From Niabella ginsenosidivorans (GTDB lineage: Bacteria > Bacteroidota > Bacteroidia > Chitinophagales > Chitinophagaceae): a DNA stretch of 64,000 bases. Within the stretch, counting starts at the first letter, position 1, and each line of letters starts with the position of its first letter. Below the pieces are notes generated by a model. The model did not search any database and was not told the origin of the DNA. It saw nothing but the letters and a program-made list of their open reading frames with translations. The stretch covers positions 3,534,001 to 3,598,000 of the forward strand of contig NZ_CP015772.1 of the NCBI RefSeq assembly GCF_001654455.1, written 5' to 3'. The translations under genes and the position numbers were made by a program. Positions 20,564 through 63,811 of this stretch are shown piece by piece.

Positions 20564-20859
20564 AGCAAGCTTCACCAGGTACAACAAAATACACCGGCCA
20601 GGTGGCTATCCCTGATGATCTTATAGCTACAATGTTAGCTTACAAAACATTTAAGCATCCCTGCTCTCCAGCCTGTTACAGAACCGTTTCTTCTCTGAAA
20701 AACGCAGGGGTCGCAAATAACCCCGTTTATTGTCGTACACAGCCTCCTTCAACGTTAAATTTTACCCCCATTTTTGTAATGTAATCAGGTGGAGCAGCAA
20801 CCACTGTAAAAACGGGCGAAACCGAAAAGCCATACGAGTAGGAAGCAAAAACATTTTTT

Positions 20860-54428: not shown

Positions 54429-55199
54429 TTATACCTTCTTTAATAATTTGCTCCTGGTGAAGATTTCTGTTAGCTTCTGTTTGGTATGTTGCGGGAAATC
54501 GCCTTTCATCATCCAATCATAATACTGCGGCTCTGCTTTTAGTACTTCTGCAACACTCTTTCCTTTGTATTTTCCAAAATTAAAAACCTCTATTCCGTTA
54601 TCCATAACAAAGCGGCGGGCAAAATCAACGATTACCTCCTCACCAATGACCTTATTGATTGTATCGATGGTAGTTCCCAATTCAGGATAACGCGCTACCT
54701 GCGCCAGCAGCACTTCATGAGTAGCTGCTGCATCTGCTTCCGCAGAATGGGCACCGTCCAGCACTTTATTGCAATAAAATTTATAGGCGGCTGATAATGT
54801 ACGTTGTTCCATTTTATGAAAGATATTCTGCACGTCAATCAGCTTCCTTCCCTTCATATCAAAATCAACACCCACTCTCAGGAATTCTTCAACCAATAAG
54901 GGAATATCAAAACGGTTGGAATTATATCCCGCAAGATCGCACCCGTCCAGTACCTGTTTCAGCTCCCGGGCTACCTGCGCAAAAGTAGGCGCATCCTTTA
55001 CCATATCGTCCGTAATACCATGAATGTCGGAGTTAGCCTTGGGTATAGGCATTTCAGGGTTGATGAGCTTCCGTTTTACTGTTTTTGAGCCGTCCGGTAA
55101 TATTTTTACAATAGCAATTTCAACAATACGGTCCGTACCCAGGTTTACACCTGTGGTTTCCAGGTCAATAAAAGCGAGGGGTTTGGTAAGTTGTAACAT
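54429..55199 (-). CDS. DnaQ-like 3'-5' exonuclease (DEDDh)
   Basis: The 256-aa protein has Exo I FIDLETTG with Asp12/Glu14, Exo II in GYNSNRFDIP and Exo III HSAEADA. A C-terminal extension (FNFGKYKGKSVAEVLKAEPQ) is a short nucleic-acid-related motif seen in this exonuclease group. It might be an accessory proofreading or RNA/DNA trimming enzyme. It is divergent from the his operon leader (177 nt between the starts). Confidence 0.92.
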   Translation of the reverse strand: MLQLTKPLAFIDLETTGVNLGTDRIVEIAIVKILPDGSKTVKRKLINPEMPIPKANSDIHGITDDMVKDAPTFAQVARELKQVLDGCDLAGYNSNRFDIPLLVEEFLRVGVDFDMKGRKLIDVQNIFHKMEQRTLSAAYKFYCNKVLDGAHSAEADAAATHEVLLAQVARYPELGTTIDTINKVIGEEVIVDFARRFVMDNGIEVFNFGKYKGKSVAEVLKAEPQYYDWMMKGDFPQHTKQKLTEIFTRSKLLKKV

Positions 55200-55300: not shown

Positions 55301-55308
55301 TATATTTG
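55301..55308 (+). promoter_or_regulatory. -7 promoter element of the his operon
   Basis: TATATTTG matches TAnnTTTG exactly. A TTTG at 55265-55268 lies 32 nt upstream, which is too far for the usual -33 box, so only the -7 element is supported. The leader peptide ATGs follow 8 and 68 nt later. Confidence 0.55.
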
Positions 55309-55375
55309 CACCGCAATGAAATACTGTATATCTATTAAACAAAGAGTTGCAGCGTTCCATTCTATTAAAAAATAT

Positions 55376-55426
55376 ATGAAAATTTTAGTACATATCCATC
55401 ATCATTTTGCAGACTTACCCAAGTAA
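55376..55426 (+). CDS. hisL: histidine operon leader peptide, His-rich
   Basis: The 16-aa frame MKILVHIHHHFADLPK has four His codons among five successive codons (55391-55405) followed by a stop at 55424-55426. An in-frame ATG at 55316 would give a 36-aa version with one more His. Such His clusters sense histidyl-tRNA level by ribosome stalling, as in enterobacterial hisL. Its position just before the alternative hairpins and hisG supports a regulatory peptide rather than a functional protein. Confidence 0.85.
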   Translation: MKILVHIHHHFADLPK

Positions 55427-55486
55427 GCCCGGTGGTGTTATGTATCAGTTTATAGAAAAAGGCTTACAAATTTGTAAGCCTTTTTT
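55414..55486 (+). promoter_or_regulatory. his transcription attenuator (competing hairpins)
   Basis: Three pairings compete. CTTAC (55414-55418) with GTAAG (55423-55427) forms a pause-type hairpin over the peptide stop. GTAAGCC (55423-55429) with GGCTTAC (55461-55467) is an antiterminator. GGCTTAC (55461-55467) with GTAAGCC (55474-55480) is the terminator, extended by A and T runs and ending in TTTTTT (55481-55486). A ribosome stalled at the His codons would mask CTTAC and favour the antiterminator. Confidence 0.85.
55456..55486 (+). terminator. attenuator terminator hairpin upstream of hisG
   Basis: AAAAAGGCTTACAAA and TTTGTAAGCCTTTTT are perfect complements around the centre, and a six-T tract follows. 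It ends 20 nt before the hisG start, so readthrough is needed for operon expression. Confidence 0.85.
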
Positions 55487-55506
55487 ATTGCAATTGCGGG
55501 TAAACG

Positions 55507-56460
55507 ATGAACATTCAGAAACAACAAAAAGAAATAACAGTGAAAAAAAGTGTATCAGGCAAATTAAACAGTCGCCCGGATCTTAAAAAAAAGGCCCCCG
55601 GCAATGAGGTGCTTCGTATTGCGGTGCAAAAATCCGGCAGGCTGAGCGAAGACTCGCTGAAACTACTAAAGGAATGTGGCATTGGCGTGCCTAACGGCAA
55701 CAACCAGTTAAAAATAAAAGCTGAAAACTTTGACGCAGAGATCTTATTTCTAAGAGATGATGATATTCCGGAATATGTACAGGACGGCGTAGCCGATATT
55801 GGTTTTGTTGGAGAAAATGTAGTGCTGGAAAAAAATAAAGCGACAGAGATCGTAGAACGGCTGGGTTATGGTAAATGCCGGCTTTCTATTGCCCTGCCCA
55901 AGACCAGGAAAAAAATAGAATTAAAAGAATTGAACGGAATGAAAATAGCTACCAGCTATCCTTTTATCCTGAACAGGTGGCTAAAGCAAAATAAAATAAA
56001 GGCAGAGACCCATGTAATCAGCGGCTCTGTGGAAATTGCGCCCCGTATTGGCCTCGCTGATGCTATCTGCGACCTGGTAAGTTCCGGCAGCACCCTGTTC
56101 AGTAATGAGCTTTACGAATATGAAACGCTGCTACGATCAGAAGCAGTACTGATTTCGGGAAAACAACTGAGCCCGCAAAGAAAAGAGCTGCTGGATAAAC
56201 TGTTATTCCGCATCCGCTCAGTAAAGAAAGCTAAATACAATAAGTACGTGCTGTTAAATGCCCCTAATAAAAGCATTGAACAAATATGCGCTTATTTGCC
56301 CGGCATCAACAGCCCTACTATTGTTCCCCTGGCAAAAAAAGGCTGGAGCTCCGTTCATTCAGTGATCAGCGAATCTGATTTCTGGAACGTGATCGAAAAT
56401 CTGAAAGCCGCCGGTGCCGAAGGGATCCTGATCATACCGATTGAAAAGATGATTGAGTGA
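55507..56460 (+). CDS. hisG: ATP phosphoribosyltransferase, long form
   Basis: This is the first step of histidine synthesis, joining ATP and PRPP. The 317-aa product contains VLRIAVQKSGRLSEDSLKLL, GVADIGFVGENVV, the PRPP loop DAICDLVSSGSTLFSN and a C-terminal HisG_C regulatory domain (about 240-317), so it is the long, allosteric form that does not need HisZ. It carries an unusual basic N-terminal extension of about 34 residues. ATG at 55507 is the only good start. Its expression is gated by the attenuator. Confidence 0.96.
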   Translation: MNIQKQQKEITVKKSVSGKLNSRPDLKKKAPGNEVLRIAVQKSGRLSEDSLKLLKECGIGVPNGNNQLKIKAENFDAEILFLRDDDIPEYVQDGVADIGFVGENVVLEKNKATEIVERLGYGKCRLSIALPKTRKKIELKELNGMKIATSYPFILNRWLKQNKIKAETHVISGSVEIAPRIGLADAICDLVSSGSTLFSNELYEYETLLRSEAVLISGKQLSPQRKELLDKLLFRIRSVKKAKYNKYVLLNAPNKSIEQICAYLPGINSPTIVPLAKKGWSSVHSVISESDFWNVIENLKAAGAEGILIIPIEKMIE

Positions 56461-56482: not shown

Positions 56483-57772
56483 ATGAAACCCCCGATAATG
56501 AATTTTTATAAATACCCTGCTCCTGAGCTTTGGCCGGAGATCTGTAAACGACCCTTACAGGAATTTCAGAAAATAATACCGGCTGTAAACAGCATTATAG
56601 TGGCGGTTCAGAAAAAGGGCGATGCTGCGCTGAAAACATTCAGCAAAAAATTTGACGGCGTTCAGCTGGAATCTTTAATCGTTACGGAAAATGAAGTAAA
56701 AGAGGCAACTGCCCTGGTGAGCGCCTCTTTAAAAACAGCCCTCAGGCAGGCAAAGAAAAATATTGAGGCCTTTCACCGTGCACAAAAAGAGGCCGCCCGT
56801 AAAATAGCTACGGCGCCCGGTATTGTTTGCTGGCGCGAAAGCAGGGCCATTGAAAAAGTAGGATTGTATATACCCGGAGGCTCTGCACCTCTGTTCTCTA
56901 CTGTTTTAATGTTAGGAGTTCCCGCACGTTTGGCAGGTTGTAAAGAGATTGTCCTGTGCACCCCCTGTAATAAAGAAGGGAAAGTGCACCCTGTCATTTT
57001 ATATGCCGCCGCTCTTTGTGGTATTACAAAAATCATTAAGGTGGGCGGGGCGCAGGCCATCGCCGCAATGGCTTATGGTACAGAAACGGTACCGGCTGTT
57101 TATAAGATCTTTGGTCCGGGCAACCAGTATGTTACTGCAGCAAAGCAGTTGGTGCAGAACCAGGTTGCCATTGATATGCCGGCCGGCCCCTCAGAAGTGC
57201 TGGTCATTGCCGATGAAACCGCCAACCCTGATTTTGTTGCGGCAGACCTGCTGGCACAGGCAGAGCACGGGCCGGACTCACAGGTGTTGCTGATTGCAAC
57301 GTCAGCATCCCTGATCAAAAAAACAGAGCAGGCTATTGCCGGACAACTGGAAACATTGCCCCGGAAAGAGATTACGGCAAAAGCATTAGCGCACTCCCGT
57401 ATGGTGCTGGTAAAGAACTGGCAGCAGGCCATTGCCCTTTCTAATTATTATGCCCCGGAGCACCTGATCCTTTCCGGCAAGGTGCCGGCTTCGCTGTTAA
57501 AGAACATCAGCGCCGCTGGCTCTGTTTTTATCGGTCACTATTCACCGGAAAGCGCGGGGGATTATGCAAGCGGCACCAATCATACCTTACCCACCAACGG
57601 GTATGCCACTGCTTACAGCGGTGTGTCGCTCGACAGCTTCTGCAAAAAGATCACCTTCCAGCAATTAAGCCGGCGCGGGTTGGAAAATATTGCAGACACC
57701 GTAATAGCAATGGCAGAAGCAGAAGGTTTACAGGCACACAGCAATGCCGTTAAAGTAAGAATCACAAATTAA
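56483..57772 (+). CDS. hisD: histidinol dehydrogenase
   Basis: The enzyme oxidises histidinol to histidine in two NAD-dependent steps. The 429-aa zinc enzyme has VGLYIPGGSAPLFSTVLMLG, GGAQAIAAMAYGTETVPAVY, KIFGPGNQYVTAAKQL and AEHGPDSQVLLI. The conserved His of YAPEHLILS and GSVFIGHYSPESAGDYASG are also present. Two in-frame ATGs (56483 and 56498) are possible. It is separated by 22 nt from hisG. Confidence 0.97.
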   Translation: MKPPIMNFYKYPAPELWPEICKRPLQEFQKIIPAVNSIIVAVQKKGDAALKTFSKKFDGVQLESLIVTENEVKEATALVSASLKTALRQAKKNIEAFHRAQKEAARKIATAPGIVCWRESRAIEKVGLYIPGGSAPLFSTVLMLGVPARLAGCKEIVLCTPCNKEGKVHPVILYAAALCGITKIIKVGGAQAIAAMAYGTETVPAVYKIFGPGNQYVTAAKQLVQNQVAIDMPAGPSEVLVIADETANPDFVAADLLAQAEHGPDSQVLLIATSASLIKKTEQAIAGQLETLPRKEITAKALAHSRMVLVKNWQQAIALSNYYAPEHLILSGKVPASLLKNISAAGSVFIGHYSPESAGDYASGTNHTLPTNGYATAYSGVSLDSFCKKITFQQLSRRGLENIADTVIAMAEAEGLQAHSNAVKVRITN

Positions 57773-57796
57773 GAATCAGCAATCACAAACAGGATC

Positions 57797-58873
57797 ATGG
57801 AATTTAATTTAGACAATTTAGTACGGGAAACTATAAAAGACCTGGCGCCCTACTCCACGGCCCGCCATGAGTTCAGCGGCGAGGCAAAAGTAATGCTGGA
57901 TGCCAATGAAAATGCAGCCGGCTCACCGGTTACACTGGATATTAACGAACGGCACGAACAGCTAAACCGTTATCCCGATCCCATTCAGCTCAAATTAAAA
58001 GAACGCATCAGCAACATCAAACGCATTCCTGTTGATCATATCTTTACCGGTAATGGCAGTGATGAGGCTATTGACCTGCTGATCCGTATTTTCTGTGAGC
58101 CGGGTTTTGACAATATTATTACCCTTCCGCCTACATATGGTATGTACAGTGTGGCAGCAGCCATTAATAATATAAAAGTAAAGGAAGTAGCCCTGGATGC
58201 GGATTTCCAATTAAACATACAGGGTATTGCAGACGCAATTGACGACTATACCAAGATCATTTTTATTTGCTCACCCAACAATCCAAGCGGCAACAGCATC
58301 ATTCGCCAGGATATAGAGATCATCCTGAACAATTTCGACGGCATCGTGGTAGTGGATGAAGCGTATATTAACTATGCCCGGCAAAAAACATTATCCCTGC
58401 AGTTAATGGACTACCCGAACCTGGTAGTATTGCAAACGCTCTCCAAAGCCTGGGGGCTGGCGGCATTGCGCCTGGGGATGGCATTTGCCGGCAAAGAGAT
58501 CATCCGGCTGATGAATAATGTGAAATATCCGTATAACATAAATATTGCCACACAGGAACTGGCATTAAAGGCATTGCAAAATGTTGAACAGGTAAACGGA
58601 TGGATCCGCGATACCATTGCTCAGCGCGAACTGCTGGCGGATGCATTAAAACAAATGGACATTACGCGCAAGGTCTATCCCTCAGATGCCAACTTCCTGC
58701 TGGTGCAAATGACCGGGGCCAATGAAATTTTCGGATACCTGCAGCAAAAAGGCATCATTGTGCGGAACCGGAGCAACGTTCCGGGATGTGAAGATTGTTT
58801 ACGTATTACTATTGGCACCGAAGAGGAAAACCATATTTTAATAGAAGCATTAAAAGCATACTGTGAGAAATAA
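57797..58873 (+). CDS. hisC: histidinol-phosphate aminotransferase
   Basis: This PLP enzyme transfers an amino group from Glu to imidazole-acetol phosphate. The 358-aa product has [49 protein letters not shown], and the PLP lysine in [15 protein letters not shown]. It follows hisD after 24 nt. Its last codons lie beside the start of hisB (4-nt gap with the ATG chosen). Confidence 0.97.
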
Positions 58874-58877
58874 GAAA

Positions 58878-60017
58878 ATGAAAAAAGTATTATTTATTGA
58901 CCGGGACGGCACATTGATTTATGAAGCGCCTCCCACCTATCAGCTGGACGCTATTGATAAGATCACCTTTTACCCCGGCATGTTTACCTGGCTGGGCAAA
59001 ATTGCCAAAGAAATGGATTTTGAGCTGGTAATGGTAACCAACCAGGATGGTTTGGGAACGGAGAAATTTCCTGAAGCTACTTTCTGGCCTGTTCAAAACC
59101 TGGTTATGCGCAACCTGGAAGCGGAAGGCATTCATTTTTCTGAAGTATTTATCGATAAAACCTTTCCGGAAGAGCAGGCACCTACCCGCAAACCGGGAAC
59201 CGGTATGCTGACAAAATACATTAACAATCCGGATTATGATCTGGCTGGCTCCTTTGTGATCGGTGACCGCATCACAGATATTCAGCTGGCTAAGAACCTG
59301 GGCTGCAAAGGCATCTGGCTGAACCAGGATGAAGCTCTGGGCGCAACGGAAATTACTGATACAATAAAAGAGCTGGAACCTGTTATTGCATTAAAGACCA
59401 CCGGTTGGCAGGAGATTTATGCATTGCTGCAACTGAAAACAAGAGTTGTGGAGTATGAACGCAATACCAATGAAACAAAAATAAAGATCCGTATCAACCT
59501 GGATGGAACCGGGCAGTGCTCCATTGATACCGGCCTGGGTTTTTTTGATCATATGCTGCACCAGCTGGGCCGTCACAGCGGTATGGATTTAAGTATTGAA
59601 ACAAAAGGCGATCTGCATATAGATGAGCATCATACTATAGAAGATACAGCCATTGCACTGGGCGAAGCACTGGGTATTGCACTGGGCAATAAAGCAGGCA
59701 TTGAACGATATGGCTTTTATTTACCGATGGATGACGCACTGGTAAAGGTGGCGCTTGACTTTGGCGGCCGTTCCTGGCTGGTTTGGGACGCAACTTTTAA
59801 ACGTGAAAAGATCGGGGAAATGCCTACTGAAATGTTCTACCATTTTTTTAAATCATTCAGTGACGGTGCAAAAATGAATCTGAACATTGAAGCAGAAGGT
59901 GAAAACGAACATCATAAAATTGAAGCCATTTTTAAAGCACTGGCAAAAGCCATCAAAATGGCCATCAAAAGAACACCGGGCAATGACCAGCTGCCCAGCA
60001 CAAAAGGATTCATCTAA
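58878..60017 (+). CDS. hisB: bifunctional histidinol-phosphatase / imidazoleglycerol-phosphate dehydratase
   Basis: The N-terminal HAD-type phosphatase (about 1-165) has the DxDxT-type [19 protein letters not shown] and [17 protein letters not shown]. The C-terminal IGP dehydratase (about 190-379) has [20 protein letters not shown] and the metal motifs [11 protein letters not shown] and [14 protein letters not shown]. The two reactions are non-consecutive steps of the pathway. The start ATG 58878 lies 4 nt after the hisC stop. An earlier GTG at 58863 would overlap hisC, adding MRNKK. Confidence 0.97.
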
Positions 60018-60075
60018 AACCCAGCCAACCTCTCAAAGGAAGGTATAAAATTATCAACTGTTAACAATTGTAAGA

Positions 60076-60720
60076 ATGAATGGACATATTCAAAATACAA
60101 ATGGCTCAAACGCCCCTTCTCCTGTGGGGAAGGGGGATGGGGTCGTCATCATAAAATACAATGCAGGCAATATCCGGTCGGTATTGTTCGCACTGGAGCG
60201 GATCGGGGTCCGGGCCACCGTAACAGATGACCCGGAAGCCCTACAGGCGGCCGATAAAATCATCTTCCCCGGTGTGGGCGAAGCCAGCACGGCCATGAAT
60301 TACCTGAAGGAACGCAAGCTGGATCTGCTGATCCGGAACGCGCGGCAGCCCCTGCTGGGCATCTGCCTGGGAATGCAGCTGCTATGTGCCCATAGCGAGG
60401 AAAATGACACCCAATGCCTGGGCATTTTTGATGTGCCTGTAAAAAAATTCATCAGCACGGAATTGAAGATCCCGCAAATGGGATGGAATACCATTCATAC
60501 AAAGGAAAGTGCATTATTCAGAAATGTACCGCAGGATACCTGGTGCTATTTCGTACACAGCTATTATGCAACGCTGAATCCTGAAACCATTGCTACAACA
60601 AGCTATGCAACGGACTTCAGCAGCGCCCTGCATAAGGATAATTTTTATGGCGTTCAGTTCCACCCGGAAAAAAGCGCTGATGCGGGCGCACAAATATTAA
60701 AGAATTTTTTAGACCTTTGA
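60076..60720 (+). CDS. hisH: imidazole glycerol phosphate synthase, glutamine amidotransferase subunit
   Basis: HisH supplies ammonia to HisF. The class I glutaminase triad is complete: Cys97 in GICLGMQLL, and His196 and Glu198 in QFHPEK. The usual start is at VVIIKYNAGNIRSVL. Here the frame begins 22 codons earlier (ATG 60076), with a low-complexity stretch made of a REP-like palindrome (60113-60135). GTG at 60124 is an alternative start. Its neighbour upstream is hisB (58 nt). Confidence 0.95.
   Translation: MNGHIQNTNGSNAPSPVGKGDGVVIIKYNAGNIRSVLFALERIGVRATVTDDPEALQAADKIIFPGVGEASTAMNYLKERKLDLLIRNARQPLLGICLGMQLLCAHSEENDTQCLGIFDVPVKKFISTELKIPQMGWNTIHTKESALFRNVPQDTWCYFVHSYYATLNPETIATTSYATDFSSALHKDNFYGVQFHPEKSADAGAQILKNFLDL
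60113..60135. repeat. REP-like palindrome inside the 5' part of hisH
   Basis: CCCCTTCTCC (60113-60122) and GGGGAAGGGG (60126-60135) form a stem with one G-T pair around a 3-nt loop. It is followed by GATGGGG, in the style of intergenic repeats. It has been captured in the coding frame. Confidence 0.6.
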
Positions 60721-60748
60721 GCAATTGAAGAACACTAAAAAATAAACA

Positions 60749-61588
60749 ATGGCACCCCAGCAGACAAAAGAAACCCTTCATGCCAAAGGTCCTGAAATTG
60801 CGATCTATACAGAAGACTTTAAAAACGAATATATATCGCTTACGGACATTGCGCGGTATAAGAGCGATGAGCCCTTTATAGTCATCAACAACTGGATGAG
60901 AGGAAAAGACACGATCCAATTTATAGGATTATGGGAGCAATTGCATAATAAAAATTTTAAACCTATCGAATTCGATAGGTTTAAAAAAGAAGCGGGCTTT
61001 AATGCCTTTACCCTCTCTCCCCAAAAATGGATTGAGGCAACGAATGCGATTGGTATTATTTCCAGATCCGGCAGGTATGGAGGCACTTTCGCGCACTCGG
61101 ATATTGCTTTTGAATTTGCTTCCTGGGTTTCCCCTGAATTTAAGTTATACATTATAAAAGACTATAAACGGCTAAAGAACGAAGAGAACAGCCGGCTTTC
61201 TTTAAACTGGAACTTAAACAGGACCATCTCAAAGCTTAATTACCGCATTCATACCGATGCCATTAAAGAAACCATCATCCCCAAAAGTATTACGAAAGAA
61301 CAGGCGGCCATTATCTATGCCCATGAAGCCGATGTATTAAATATGGCATTATTCGGCATTACCGCTAAACAATGGAGGGATCAAAATAAATCATCAAAGG
61401 GCAATATAAGAGACCTGGCAACAATAGAACAGCTATTGGTTCTGGCCAACCTGGAAAGTCTGAATGCTGAATTCATCAGGATGGGGATGCCCCAAAATGA
61501 ACGGTTAATAAAGCTGAACCGAACTGCTATCTGTCAGTTAACTTCTTTACTAAAAAACAACACAACCAATCAAATAGACAAACGATAA
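60749..61588 (+). CDS. KilA-N domain DNA-binding protein inserted in the his operon
   Basis: The 279-aa product starts with MAPQQTKETLHAKGPEIAIY. A KilA-N domain spans about residues 25-140: ISLTDIARYKSDEPFIVINN, LSPQKWIEATNAIGIISRSG, then FAHSDIAFEFASWVSPEFKL. The C-terminal half (about 150-279) is helical with unclear family. KilA-N proteins are known from phages and accessory loci and are presumed DNA binding. It starts 28 nt after hisH, and its TAA touches the ATG of hisA directly, so it is co-transcribed. It has no known place in histidine synthesis. Confidence 0.88.
   Translation: MAPQQTKETLHAKGPEIAIYTEDFKNEYISLTDIARYKSDEPFIVINNWMRGKDTIQFIGLWEQLHNKNFKPIEFDRFKKEAGFNAFTLSPQKWIEATNAIGIISRSGRYGGTFAHSDIAFEFASWVSPEFKLYIIKDYKRLKNEENSRLSLNWNLNRTISKLNYRIHTDAIKETIIPKSITKEQAAIIYAHEADVLNMALFGITAKQWRDQNKSSKGNIRDLATIEQLLVLANLESLNAEFIRMGMPQNERLIKLNRTAICQLTSLLKNNTTNQIDKR
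60955..60986. repeat. 32-bp perfect palindrome in the KilA-N coding sequence
   Basis: TTTTAAACCTATCGAA and its exact reverse complement meet at GAATTC in the centre. The palindrome encodes residues about 69-80 (NFKPIEFDRFKK). It could form a strong RNA hairpin or serve as a binding site. Confidence 0.75.
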
Positions 61589-62311
61589 ATGGACATCATA
61601 CCCGCAATAGATATTATAGAAGGCAAAGCCGTACGGCTAAGCAAAGGAGACTACAGCCAGAAAAAAATATACAACGAGCATCCCCTGGAAGTAGCGCAGC
61701 AGTTTGAGGATACCGGCTTAAAACGCTTACATCTTGTAGACCTGGACGGTGCTAAGGCCGGCCGTGTTACCAACTGGAAGGTACTGGAAACCATTGCCGG
61801 TAAAACCAGCCTCATCATCGACTTCAGCGGAGGCATCAGCAGCGAAAAGGACGTACAGATCACCTTCAATTCCGGTGCTGCTTACGCTGCCGTAGGCAGT
61901 ATGGCAGTTAGGAAGCCCGTGGTGTTCCAGGATTGGCTGACCGCTTTCGGGGTTGAAAAATTCATCCTGGGCGCAGATGTGCTGGATGAAAAAATAATGA
62001 TCAAAGGCTGGACAGAAGCAACAGAGATTAATATTTTTAATTTCCTTAAACATTACCGTACCAAGGGCCTGCAGCAGTTCTTTTGTACAGACATCAGTAA
62101 GGACGGCCTTTTGCAGGGCAGCTCCAATGATCTTTACAGGAAAATTCTTGACGAAATAGAAGGCTTAAAGCTCATTGCCAGCGGTGGTGTCAGCTGTATA
62201 AAAGACCTGGAAGAGCTGAGCGCCATAGGCTGCAGCGGAGCCATAGTAGGCAAGGCAATCTATGAAAACAGGATCAGCCTAAAAGAGCTGACTCATTTTC
62301 ATAATAAATAG
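61589..62311 (+). CDS. hisA: ProFAR isomerase (phosphoribosylformimino-5-aminoimidazole carboxamide ribotide isomerase)
   Basis: This (beta/alpha)8 barrel isomerase makes the substrate of HisF. Catalytic Asp8 is in IPAIDIIEGK. VDLDGAKAG, DFSGGISSEKDVQITFNSGA, CTDISKDGLLQGSS and ASGGVSC are the family motifs. The length is 240 aa. Its ATG directly follows the stop of the KilA-N gene. A 99-nt gap separates it from hisF. Confidence 0.96.
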   Translation: MDIIPAIDIIEGKAVRLSKGDYSQKKIYNEHPLEVAQQFEDTGLKRLHLVDLDGAKAGRVTNWKVLETIAGKTSLIIDFSGGISSEKDVQITFNSGAAYAAVGSMAVRKPVVFQDWLTAFGVEKFILGADVLDEKIMIKGWTEATEINIFNFLKHYRTKGLQQFFCTDISKDGLLQGSSNDLYRKILDEIEGLKLIASGGVSCIKDLEELSAIGCSGAIVGKAIYENRISLKELTHFHNK

Positions 62312-62410
62312 CAGCGCCTGAAATTTCTGATCTAAAATGAGGCCGGTTATTCAATAGATCAGCCACAGGAAAACAAAAATTTAAAGAAAACAACTAAATC
62401 AGCAATTAAA

Positions 62411-63166
62411 ATGCTCGCAAAACGAATCATTCCCTGTTTAGATATCAAAGACGGGCAAACCGTAAAGGGAACCAACTTTATAAACCTGCGCCACGCGGGC
62501 GACCCGGTGGAACTGGCGATGCGCTATTGTACTGAAGGTGCTGATGAATTGGTGTTTCTTGACATTACTGCAACGGTAGATAAAAGGAAAACCCTGTCGG
62601 AACTGGTGCGCAAAATTGCTACTCACATCAATATTCCTTTTACAGTGGGCGGAGGAATTAATTCGGTGGAAGATGTATCTGTGCTTATGGAAAACGGGGC
62701 CGATAAAATATCTGTTAACACATCGGCCGTTAAAAATCCGCAGCTGGTAAGCGATCTTGCAAAAAATTTCGGCAGCCAGTGCGTAGTGGTTGCTATTGAC
62801 ATCAAACTATTTGATGGCGTATGGAAAGTGGTAACCCATGGGGGTAGAACAGCAACAGAGCTGAACGCCACAGAATGGGCAAAGGAAGTAAGCCGGTTAG
62901 GCGCAGGAGAAATCCTGTTAACGTCCATGGAAAATGATGGCACAAAAAACGGGTTTGCCATTGACATAACAAGGGCGATCAGCGAAACGCTCCCTATTCC
63001 GGTCATTGCTTCCGGCGGGGCCGGCTCTATGGAACATTTCCGGGATGTGTTTCAAAAAGGAGCTGCTGATGCAGCACTGGCGGCCAGTATTTTCCATTTC
63101 CGGGAAATTGAGATCGGCACATTAAAAAACTATTTAAATAACAATCAGATTCCCGTCCGGTTATAA
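62411..63166 (+). CDS. hisF: imidazole glycerol phosphate synthase, cyclase subunit
   Basis: This (beta/alpha)8 barrel cyclase pairs with HisH to make imidazole glycerol phosphate and AICAR. Asp11 in [17 protein letters not shown] and Asp130 in VVAIDIKLF are present, as are [24 protein letters not shown] and [10 protein letters not shown]. The 251-aa length is normal. It is separated from hisIE by 54 nt. Confidence 0.97.
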
Positions 63167-63220
63167 TTTGCCGGCAGTTGAATTCTTATTATAAAACTCC
63201 GAAATTTTTAAATTCGCACA

Positions 63221-63811
63221 ATGATCAGTTTTTCAAAATATACAGATGGCCTGGCGCCGGTAATCATCCAGGACGCAGCTACGCAACAGGTGCTGATGCT
63301 GGGTTTTATGAACGAAGAAGCCCTGGAAAAAACAAAGCAGGAAGGAAAAGTAACCTTCTTCAGCCGCAGCAAACAACGCCTGTGGACAAAGGGAGAAACT
63401 TCCAGTAATTTTTTGCTGGTAAAAGAGATCTTACCGGATTGCGATAACGATACCCTGCTCATCAAAGCCGATCCGCAGGGCCCTACCTGTCATACAGGCA
63501 CTACAAGTTGCTTTGGAACGGCCAATGATACTTTTTCATTACAGCAACTGGAAAAAGTGATCCGCGACCGGAAAAACAACCCATCTGAAAAATCATATAC
63601 CGCTTCCTTATTTGCAAAAGGCATTAACAAGATCGCCCAGAAAGTAGGTGAAGAAGCCGTGGAAGTAGTGATCGAGGCAAAAGACGATAACCCCGGCCTG
63701 TTTTTAGGAGAAGCCGCCGACCTGCTGTTCCATTACCTGGTATTATTGCAGGCCAAGGGATTTGAGCTGAAAGATGTGCTTGGCGTACTGGAAGCAAGGC
63801 ATCAGCAATAA
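63221..63811 (+). CDS. hisIE: bifunctional phosphoribosyl-AMP cyclohydrolase / phosphoribosyl-ATP pyrophosphatase
   Basis: The N-terminal HisI (about 1-110) has LMLGFMNEEALEKT, FSRSKQRLWTKGETS and the Cys/His metal ligands in GPTCHTGTTSCF. The C-terminal HisE (about 115-196) has SYTASLFAKGINKIAQKVGE, then EEAVEVVIEAKDDN. It completes the pathway after hisG. It is the last gene of the operon, and no hairpin terminator is clear after it. Confidence 0.97.
   Translation: MISFSKYTDGLAPVIIQDAATQQVLMLGFMNEEALEKTKQEGKVTFFSRSKQRLWTKGETSSNFLLVKEILPDCDNDTLLIKADPQGPTCHTGTTSCFGTANDTFSLQQLEKVIRDRKNNPSEKSYTASLFAKGINKIAQKVGEEAVEVVIEAKDDNPGLFLGEAADLLFHYLVLLQAKGFELKDVLGVLEARHQQ

Follow-up and report, generated by a model that had tools for sequence, protein, structure and literature searches.

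A conserved candidate histidine attenuator with a probably near-leaderless leader peptide ahead of hisG in Niabella ginsenosidivorans

Leader-peptide attenuation is a known principle, and attenuators of Bacteroidetes are reportedly mentioned by Vitreschak 2004. The enterobacterial his leader (Rfam RF00514), as presented in the available part of PMC9413887, combines a leader peptide with tandem His residues and a mutually exclusive terminator and antiterminator, the same logic as proposed below for Niabella. Candidate his attenuators of Firmicutes in the same part of that article contain three to five His codons together with a terminator and an antiterminator; they are likened to our locus by description and belong to another phylum. 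His leaders of other phyla are treated in PMC9413887 and in the accessible sections of PMC2965389. For Bacteroidota, the motif Bacteroid-trp (RF01692) is marked as a probable cis-regulatory RNA in the portion of PMC2864571 at hand, belonging by its name to trp and not to his, and a search of the whole Niabella genome with its model yielded nothing at E up to 10. The nearest prior report that was found concerns Flavobacterium psychrophilum (PMC9723704, available in part): it presents strong indications of attenuation by leader peptides ahead of amino-acid operons and describes a structured element before hisG, which was found in other Flavobacteriaceae genera and had no Rfam matches. This element shares phylum and gene with ours and is likened to it by description; the available text does not call it an attenuator. 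No description of the present element in Chitinophagaceae was found in the literature searched, outside which most subscription journals lie, and Bacteroidota attenuators as a whole are little described in the literature found.

The locus described here lies in the window, by which we mean the whole stretch of 64,000 nucleotides analysed, from the single-contig genome (5.63 Mb) of the soil bacterium Niabella ginsenosidivorans, a member of the Chitinophagaceae. All features of the leader are on the + strand. A Bacteroidota-type −7 box of the form TAnnTTTG, TATATTTG, was read directly from the sequence at 55301-55308. It is followed by a leader ORF of 36 aa, MKYCISIKQRVAAFHSIKKYMKILVHIHHHFADLPK (55316-55426), which starts at a promoter-proximal ATG and has within it an internal in-frame ATG opening a 16-aa ORF, MKILVHIHHHFADLPK (55376-55426), with the same stop codon TAA at 55424-55426. 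The codons CAT ATC CAT CAT CAT (H-I-H-H-H, 55391-55405), assigned as regulatory from direct reading and from conservation, provide the four His codons of the leader at 55391-55393 and 55397-55405. hisG (55507-56460, +), the first gene of a presumed operon, was identified by TIGR00070 and TIGR03455 matches above cut-off.

At and behind the stop codon several short sequences can pair in alternative ways. GTAAGCC (arm B, 55423-55429), which contains the stop TAA and would be the 5′ arm of an antiterminator, is complementary to GGCTTAC (arm C, 55461-55467), and arm C is also the partner of a second GTAAGCC (arm D, 55474-55480), the 3′ arm of the terminator. Arms C and D are parts of an intrinsic terminator at 55455-55486, defined by fold and alignment, which has a 14-pair stem, a 4-nt loop and a T run with six T at 55481-55486. 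Arm A (ACTTAC, 55413-55418) can pair with B around the stop codon in two possible registers, CTTAC at 55414-55418 being opposite GTAAG at 55423-55427. A sequence-only reading of this DNA had proposed the alternative B, C and D pairings with six T, which proved exact, and the third pairing CTTAC/GTAAG spanning the stop codon, which is present. A further helix, P1, in which His codons are paired with sequence past the stop codon, is an addition to that reading. Its 5′ arm (55388-55403) comprises GUACAUA (55388-55394) and CAUCAUC (55397-55403), and its 3′ arm (55431-55445) comprises GGTGGTG (55431-55437), a single T and TATGTAT (55439-55445). P1 and arm A were assigned from fold and covariation, the 5′ arm of P1 in addition from partner swaps.

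The region 55388-55486 folds at −32.2 kcal/mol, compared with −14.3 for shuffles (z −6.7, 0 of 200 shuffles as good), and the fold consists of the P1 hairpin enclosing the small stop-codon hairpin, plus the 14-pair terminator. P1 prevails in the fold with the leader free (z −1.3). When the ribosome-covered part was removed and D was left unmade, B:C (GUAAGCC/GGCUUAC) was the best fold, with a z of only −1.1 and thus not unusually stable. The terminator is absent from the list of a simple terminator scanner, perhaps because its stem takes in the entire T run.

By score the element lies outside the enterobacterial Rfam family. A cmscan search with RF00514 (His_leader) gave no match at the locus, either at gathering (49 bits) or at E up to 10, in keeping with the earlier claim that this leader differs from that family. 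Genome-wide the RF00514 search gave 8 sub-threshold matches, none at the hisG leader; among 14 control genomes, one gave a match above the cut-off in the same search. Two further families appeared below threshold at E up to 10, Phe_leader with 26.7 bits (cut-off 55) and Thr_leader with 24.6 bits (cut-off 55); these matches were not accepted and were taken to reflect a shared plan. That a His-codon leader before a his operon is shared with RF00514 speaks of shared function and is not evidence of homology. From its sequence we regard the element as a well-conserved candidate his attenuator, which should work like the enterobacterial one; the sequence family that recurs in the relatives is absent from Rfam. 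A search of the genome with a model of the element revealed one strong copy (139.5 bits), followed by the same terminator on the other strand (32.8 bits) and a match elsewhere (32.0 bits). A supposed second genomic copy, a 30-nt reverse-strand match, was rejected as the terminator palindrome itself.

We consider it highly probable that the element is a ribosome-mediated transcription attenuator, which couples expression of the his operon to charged tRNA-His. Transcription would begin just past the −7 box, and translation of the leader peptide would be initiated by a ribosome almost at the RNA 5′ terminus. A shortage of charged tRNA-His would hold this ribosome on the CAT codons, where it should cover the 5′ arm of P1 as well as arm A and leave B free. 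Free B could then take C before D is made, so that no terminator would form and polymerase would enter hisG. If histidine is plentiful, a ribosome at the stop codon inside B would cover B, C:D would form and transcription would end at about 55486. With no ribosome on the leader, P1 and A:B would sequester B, and the terminator is predicted to form too. Stalling-controlled antitermination, as the sequence-only reading had it, is in this form supported by anatomy, conservation and covariation.

For comparison with relatives, hisG was sought in genomes of the genus (found in 16 of 17), of a family sample (113 of 147) and of a phylum sample (128 of 148). A subset of these matches was read, amounting to 189 distinct upstream regions after removal of one row with identical last 150 nt (190 to 189). 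The named loci among them are the best 80 of 578, a few carrying other labels such as Marivirga. The 128 phylum genomes contributed 65 loci outside the family and a few inside, the 113 family genomes the fetched loci only. Rows left out were self matches (L001/L002), a gene cut by a contig end (L016), extra fragments of the same genes (L019-L021) and repeats (L049/L050); L010 and L079 come from one genome and were both kept, and further repeats among the genomes are possible.

A His-rich leader ORF, defined as an ATG ORF shorter than 60 codons in which a stretch of seven residues includes three or more His, is located ahead of hisG at 163 of the 189 loci. The reverse strand gave 2 of 189, and five shuffles gave 2, 4, 3, 7 and 4 of 189. 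The ORF is present at 15/15 genus loci, 30/30 other family loci, 75/79 named loci and 43/65 loci outside the family; ORF and terminator together occur at 148 of the 189 loci (genus 15, other family 29, named 73, outside family 31). The His codons are thus conserved in hisG upstream regions, on which the earlier proposal had made itself depend. At nine loci where hisG is divergent (about 30% identity) a His leader ORF is absent. Of the four named exceptions, L109 can be read as a His leader that begins with GTG, and at L102 no leader was evident in the sequence. The other two show apparent decay of the switch upstream of hisG: at L136 the promoter box is followed by a terminator without a leader, and L147 retains the arms with hardly any His codons.

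The terminator 5′ arm contains GCTT at 116 of the 148 loci, and 32 have other stems. A GTTTGA stem is found in all 14 genomes of family f5 with a hisG match; family f14 has CCCCGGC-like stems, with ORF and terminator at 9 of 10 loci read. The effect of ribosome position was modelled by hiding 13 nt, beginning with the first nucleotide of the codon in the A site; the 16-aa ORF was used for the window. In this model the probability of B:C in the window is 0.00-0.02 with the A site on the first four codons and 0.51 on GTA, rises to 0.97-1.00 on the His run and the two codons after it (first His codon through GCA), is 0.55 at GAC and falls to 0 from TTA to the stop. Among the 116 GCTT-type loci, B:C above 0.5 was predicted at 116 with the ribosome on the last His codon, at 112 on the first His codon, at 32 with no ribosome and at 0 with the ribosome at the stop codon, the last largely by construction because the footprint there hides B; the predicted switch was complete in all three respects at 84 of 116.

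When any upstream pairing of C above 0.5 was counted at the 148 loci, the model gave 146, 144 and 140 loci for the last His codon and 6, 12 and 15 for the stop codon with footprints of 10, 13 and 16 nt, and 52 loci with no ribosome. With the spacer shuffled, the last His codon still gave 57 of 148 loci at the 13-nt footprint, versus 144 of 148 for the real sequences, so the stall effect is partly generic and the control is a weak one. Since C is predicted to be paired upstream at 52 of 148 loci with no ribosome and at 12 of 148 at the stop codon, basal termination would not be tight everywhere.

The arms were then compared between loci. In a partner swap the stop-proximal arm B paired better with its own C than with a C from another terminator type at 114 of 116 GCTT-type and 29 of 32 other loci. 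A stricter test, in which a narrow stretch round the stop codon was shuffled, gave p ≤0.05 for B:C at 102 of 148 loci (76/116, 13/14 and 13/18 by type); some of the failures arose because the ORF extends past B, so that the shuffled stretch missed B. The stop codon overlaps B at 87 of the 116 GCTT-type loci and has no overlap at 29. For P1 the own partner was stronger at 87 of 116 GCTT-type loci (Wilcoxon p 8e-8, on loci that are not independent) and, weakly, at 22 of 32 loci with other terminator types (p 0.087).

A covariance model, R1, was built from the genus (15 training rows) and applied to 88 of the 101 GCTT-type loci outside training, which were preselected as that type. All 88 matched at E ≤0.01, with 18 extra matches, mostly to the reverse-strand terminator. 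The pair count used 75 sources (74 loci and the window) after 14 loci had been dropped, 11 of them below the cut and three (L024, L026, L132) despite good scores. In the resulting model-fitted alignment, which leans towards its own structure and consists of related sequences, 24 of 33 pairs changed on both sides, in 187 cells versus a shuffled mean of 59.6, and 0 of 500 shuffles were as high. Of its cells 88.1% pair, compared with 35-44% when the partners are slid by one to three columns. Both-side changes affect 7/7 pairs in the outer part of P1, 4/7 in its inner part and 4/4 in the A:B helix. By partner swap and by pair count, the arms thus covary, and the compensatory changes that the sequence-only reading had looked to are there. 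When 64 of the 116 GCTT-type loci were aligned plainly with MAFFT, RNAalifold predicted the terminator only, with both-side changes in 5 of 11 pairs; P1 was not predicted from this alignment, which may be because of a one-base register shift between the relatives' columns.

Among the relatives the CTTAC-like arm A falls in any of three reading frames (55, 17 and 9 loci; 35 loci are without the motif), which points to a constraint on the RNA rather than on the peptide. This bears on the possibility that the leader acts chiefly on translation, or in trans as a small RNA or peptide, with the transcription switch being secondary. For Sinorhizobium meliloti, a trans action of both the attenuated trp leader RNA and the peptide that it encodes is described (available part of PMC7298713), and the terminated RNA of the present locus would be about 170 nt in length. 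Nevertheless, outside the His run the peptide varies, the CTTAC-like motif occurs in different frames, and the terminator ends 20 nt ahead of the hisG ATG and leaves this ATG uncovered. We judge such a mode of action very unlikely.

The same comparisons speak against the view that the hairpin is a mere terminator of an upstream unit, or a constitutive leader terminator, accompanied by a coincidental His-rich ORF. A promoter box, a hairpin and a T run alone would indeed need no regulation, but the His ORF is present at 163 of 189 loci versus 2 on the reverse strand, B:C and P1 covary, and the next ORF upstream (54429-55199) is encoded on the other strand and directed away; this view retains almost no credit. 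A metabolite- or tRNA-binding riboswitch (T-box or similar) in place of a ribosome-sensing leader is likewise extremely improbable, for although position and terminator/antiterminator logic are as in T-box leaders, no Rfam model matched here at gathering, no T-box covariance model matched the locus at gathering or at E up to 10, the 16 matches at E up to 10 include no T-box or riboswitch, all 15 genus loci read have the His-codon ORF, and P1 is made of the His codons themselves.

The candidate attenuator of the window probably makes its leader peptide from a near-leaderless RNA. A −7 box lies about seven bases ahead of the transcription start. The ATG at 55316 is 7 nt past TATATTTG, and from the internal ATG the leader frame stays open upstream as far as 55316. 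An exact TAnnTTTG ending at most 10 nt before an in-frame leader ATG was found at 79 of the 116 GCTT-type loci, with 0.76 expected from shuffled upstream sequence; 37 of the 116 fall outside this rule. From the 7-nt spacing here and the spacing of at most 10 nt at 79 of 116 loci, the 5′ UTR would be roughly 0-6 nt. Where the stem is of another type and the box complete (20 loci), box and ATG are 7-35 nt apart, and at 17 of these loci the distance is at least 17 nt.

The same ATG changes the peptide. The sequence-only reading had placed a 16-aa peptide with four His codons between the −7 box and hisG; ORF, codons and coordinates hold, and the start is probably at 55316, giving 36 aa and not 16. 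In congeners such as L004-L007 the ATG at the promoter-proximal spot continues directly into the His-codon ORF. Compared with them, the window leader has 60 additional in-frame nt after its first codons, which preserve the frame between ATG 55316 and the His codons. The 16-aa ORF (55376-55426) is the counterpart of the entire leader ORF in congeners such as L004-L007, L009 and L010. Because ATG 55316 is 7 nt past the box and 79 of 116 relatives are similar, both the near-leaderless RNA and the 36-aa peptide are probable. The congener L008 was rejected as support for the promoter-proximal start, since this ATG is lost there and the locus is a counterexample. Promoter spacing of other window genes was dropped as a yardstick, an exact box within 120 nt being present in just 3 of 47 ORFs (18, 39 and 64 nt).

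If correct, the near-leaderless start is the most unusual trait of the candidate his attenuator. The his leader of E. coli has a 5′ UTR, in contrast to the start that we infer for Niabella. Shine-Dalgarno sequences are used little in Bacteroidota. The available sections of PMC9723704 note that flavobacteria lack them and count 5.5% of F. psychrophilum mRNAs as leaderless; for B. thetaiotaomicron about 3.7% of 5′ UTRs are <10 nt according to the accessible part of PMC7366714. Leaderless attenuator peptides, encoded from the RNA 5′ end, are described for S. meliloti trpL (PMC7298713) and for Streptomyces lividans trpL, leuL and ilvL (PMC8079986), each source being available in part. In those leaders transcript ends were mapped, whereas the Niabella start is deduced from promoter spacing; they belong to other phyla, and the parts at hand include no his leader.

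Further amino-acid operons of the Niabella genome carry candidate leader peptides with matching amino acids. trpE is preceded by MNFTKNNMWWHNNTVGVL, the ATG of which lies 6 nt past TATATTTG, plus a terminator. Ahead of ilvD lie MFDNAHNRSQLFRNAIVVFAIVILHKNGGGII and a terminator, with no exact −7 box; ahead of thrA lies MNTGSVNGTTTTIITTPCGL, with neither an exact −7 box nor a perfect-stem terminator. MNTGSVNGTTTTIITTPCGL is threonine/isoleucine-rich and is located about 140 nt upstream of an aspartokinase match (L203); the thr leader of E. coli has a similar content. Of the 59 family genomes with a trpE match, 30 trpE genes were read. A Trp leader, defined by two or more Trp within five residues and mostly with WWW, is found ahead of 29 of these 30; a perfect-stem terminator is present at 17 and an exact −7 box at a distance of at most 10 nt at 7.

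We put forward, tentatively and with doubt slightly outweighing confidence, that the amino-acid attenuators of Chitinophagaceae form one coherent RNA family, as yet unregistered, whose leader peptides are near-leaderless (his, partly trp), and that arms A-D of the switch were swapped together on more than one occasion within the phylum. If true, the switch would read the supply of charged tRNA and also the capacity of the cell to initiate on 5′-terminal AUGs, and the locus offers a clear test of leaderless initiation driving an attenuator in Bacteroidota. For histidine synthesis, covariation as well as anatomy supports widespread ribosome-mediated attenuation in this phylum. The analysis furthermore yields a registrable covariance model and four candidate leader peptides in one genome.

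Several loci ahead of hisG are built differently. L060, L062 and L149 have His-rich leaders ending FHHSS with a hairpin (ATTCCTC..GAGGAAT type) over the stop codon, and no intrinsic terminator was found there; they are perhaps another attenuator type. In family f3 the His ORF was present at 5/5 and the terminator at 0/5 loci read. Leaders of this family (L165, L166, L167, L173) end in HHRR or a like sequence, and a hairpin, such as ATCGCC GATA GGCGAT in L165, covers the stop codon or lies close to it. In family f21 (L182, L185, L188) leaders of 24-30 residues contain many scattered His codons, and no terminator was found; these could act by Rho or at translation.

Downstream of hisG the presumed operon (56483-63811, +) contains hisD, hisC, a bifunctional hisB, hisH, a KilA-N ORF, hisA, hisF and hisIE. 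The KilA-N ORF between hisH and hisA (60749-61588, +; PF04383, E 1e-18; no NCBIfam match) is an unusual neighbour for histidine genes. In the hisG ORF, the first 35 residues (55507-55605, +) are outside the TIGR00070 match (36-216), and the true start of hisG may be downstream of 55507. Elsewhere in the window, a DUF805 RNA (RF03081) was detected at 20784-20848 (+) with 68.5 bits versus a cut-off of 51.1.
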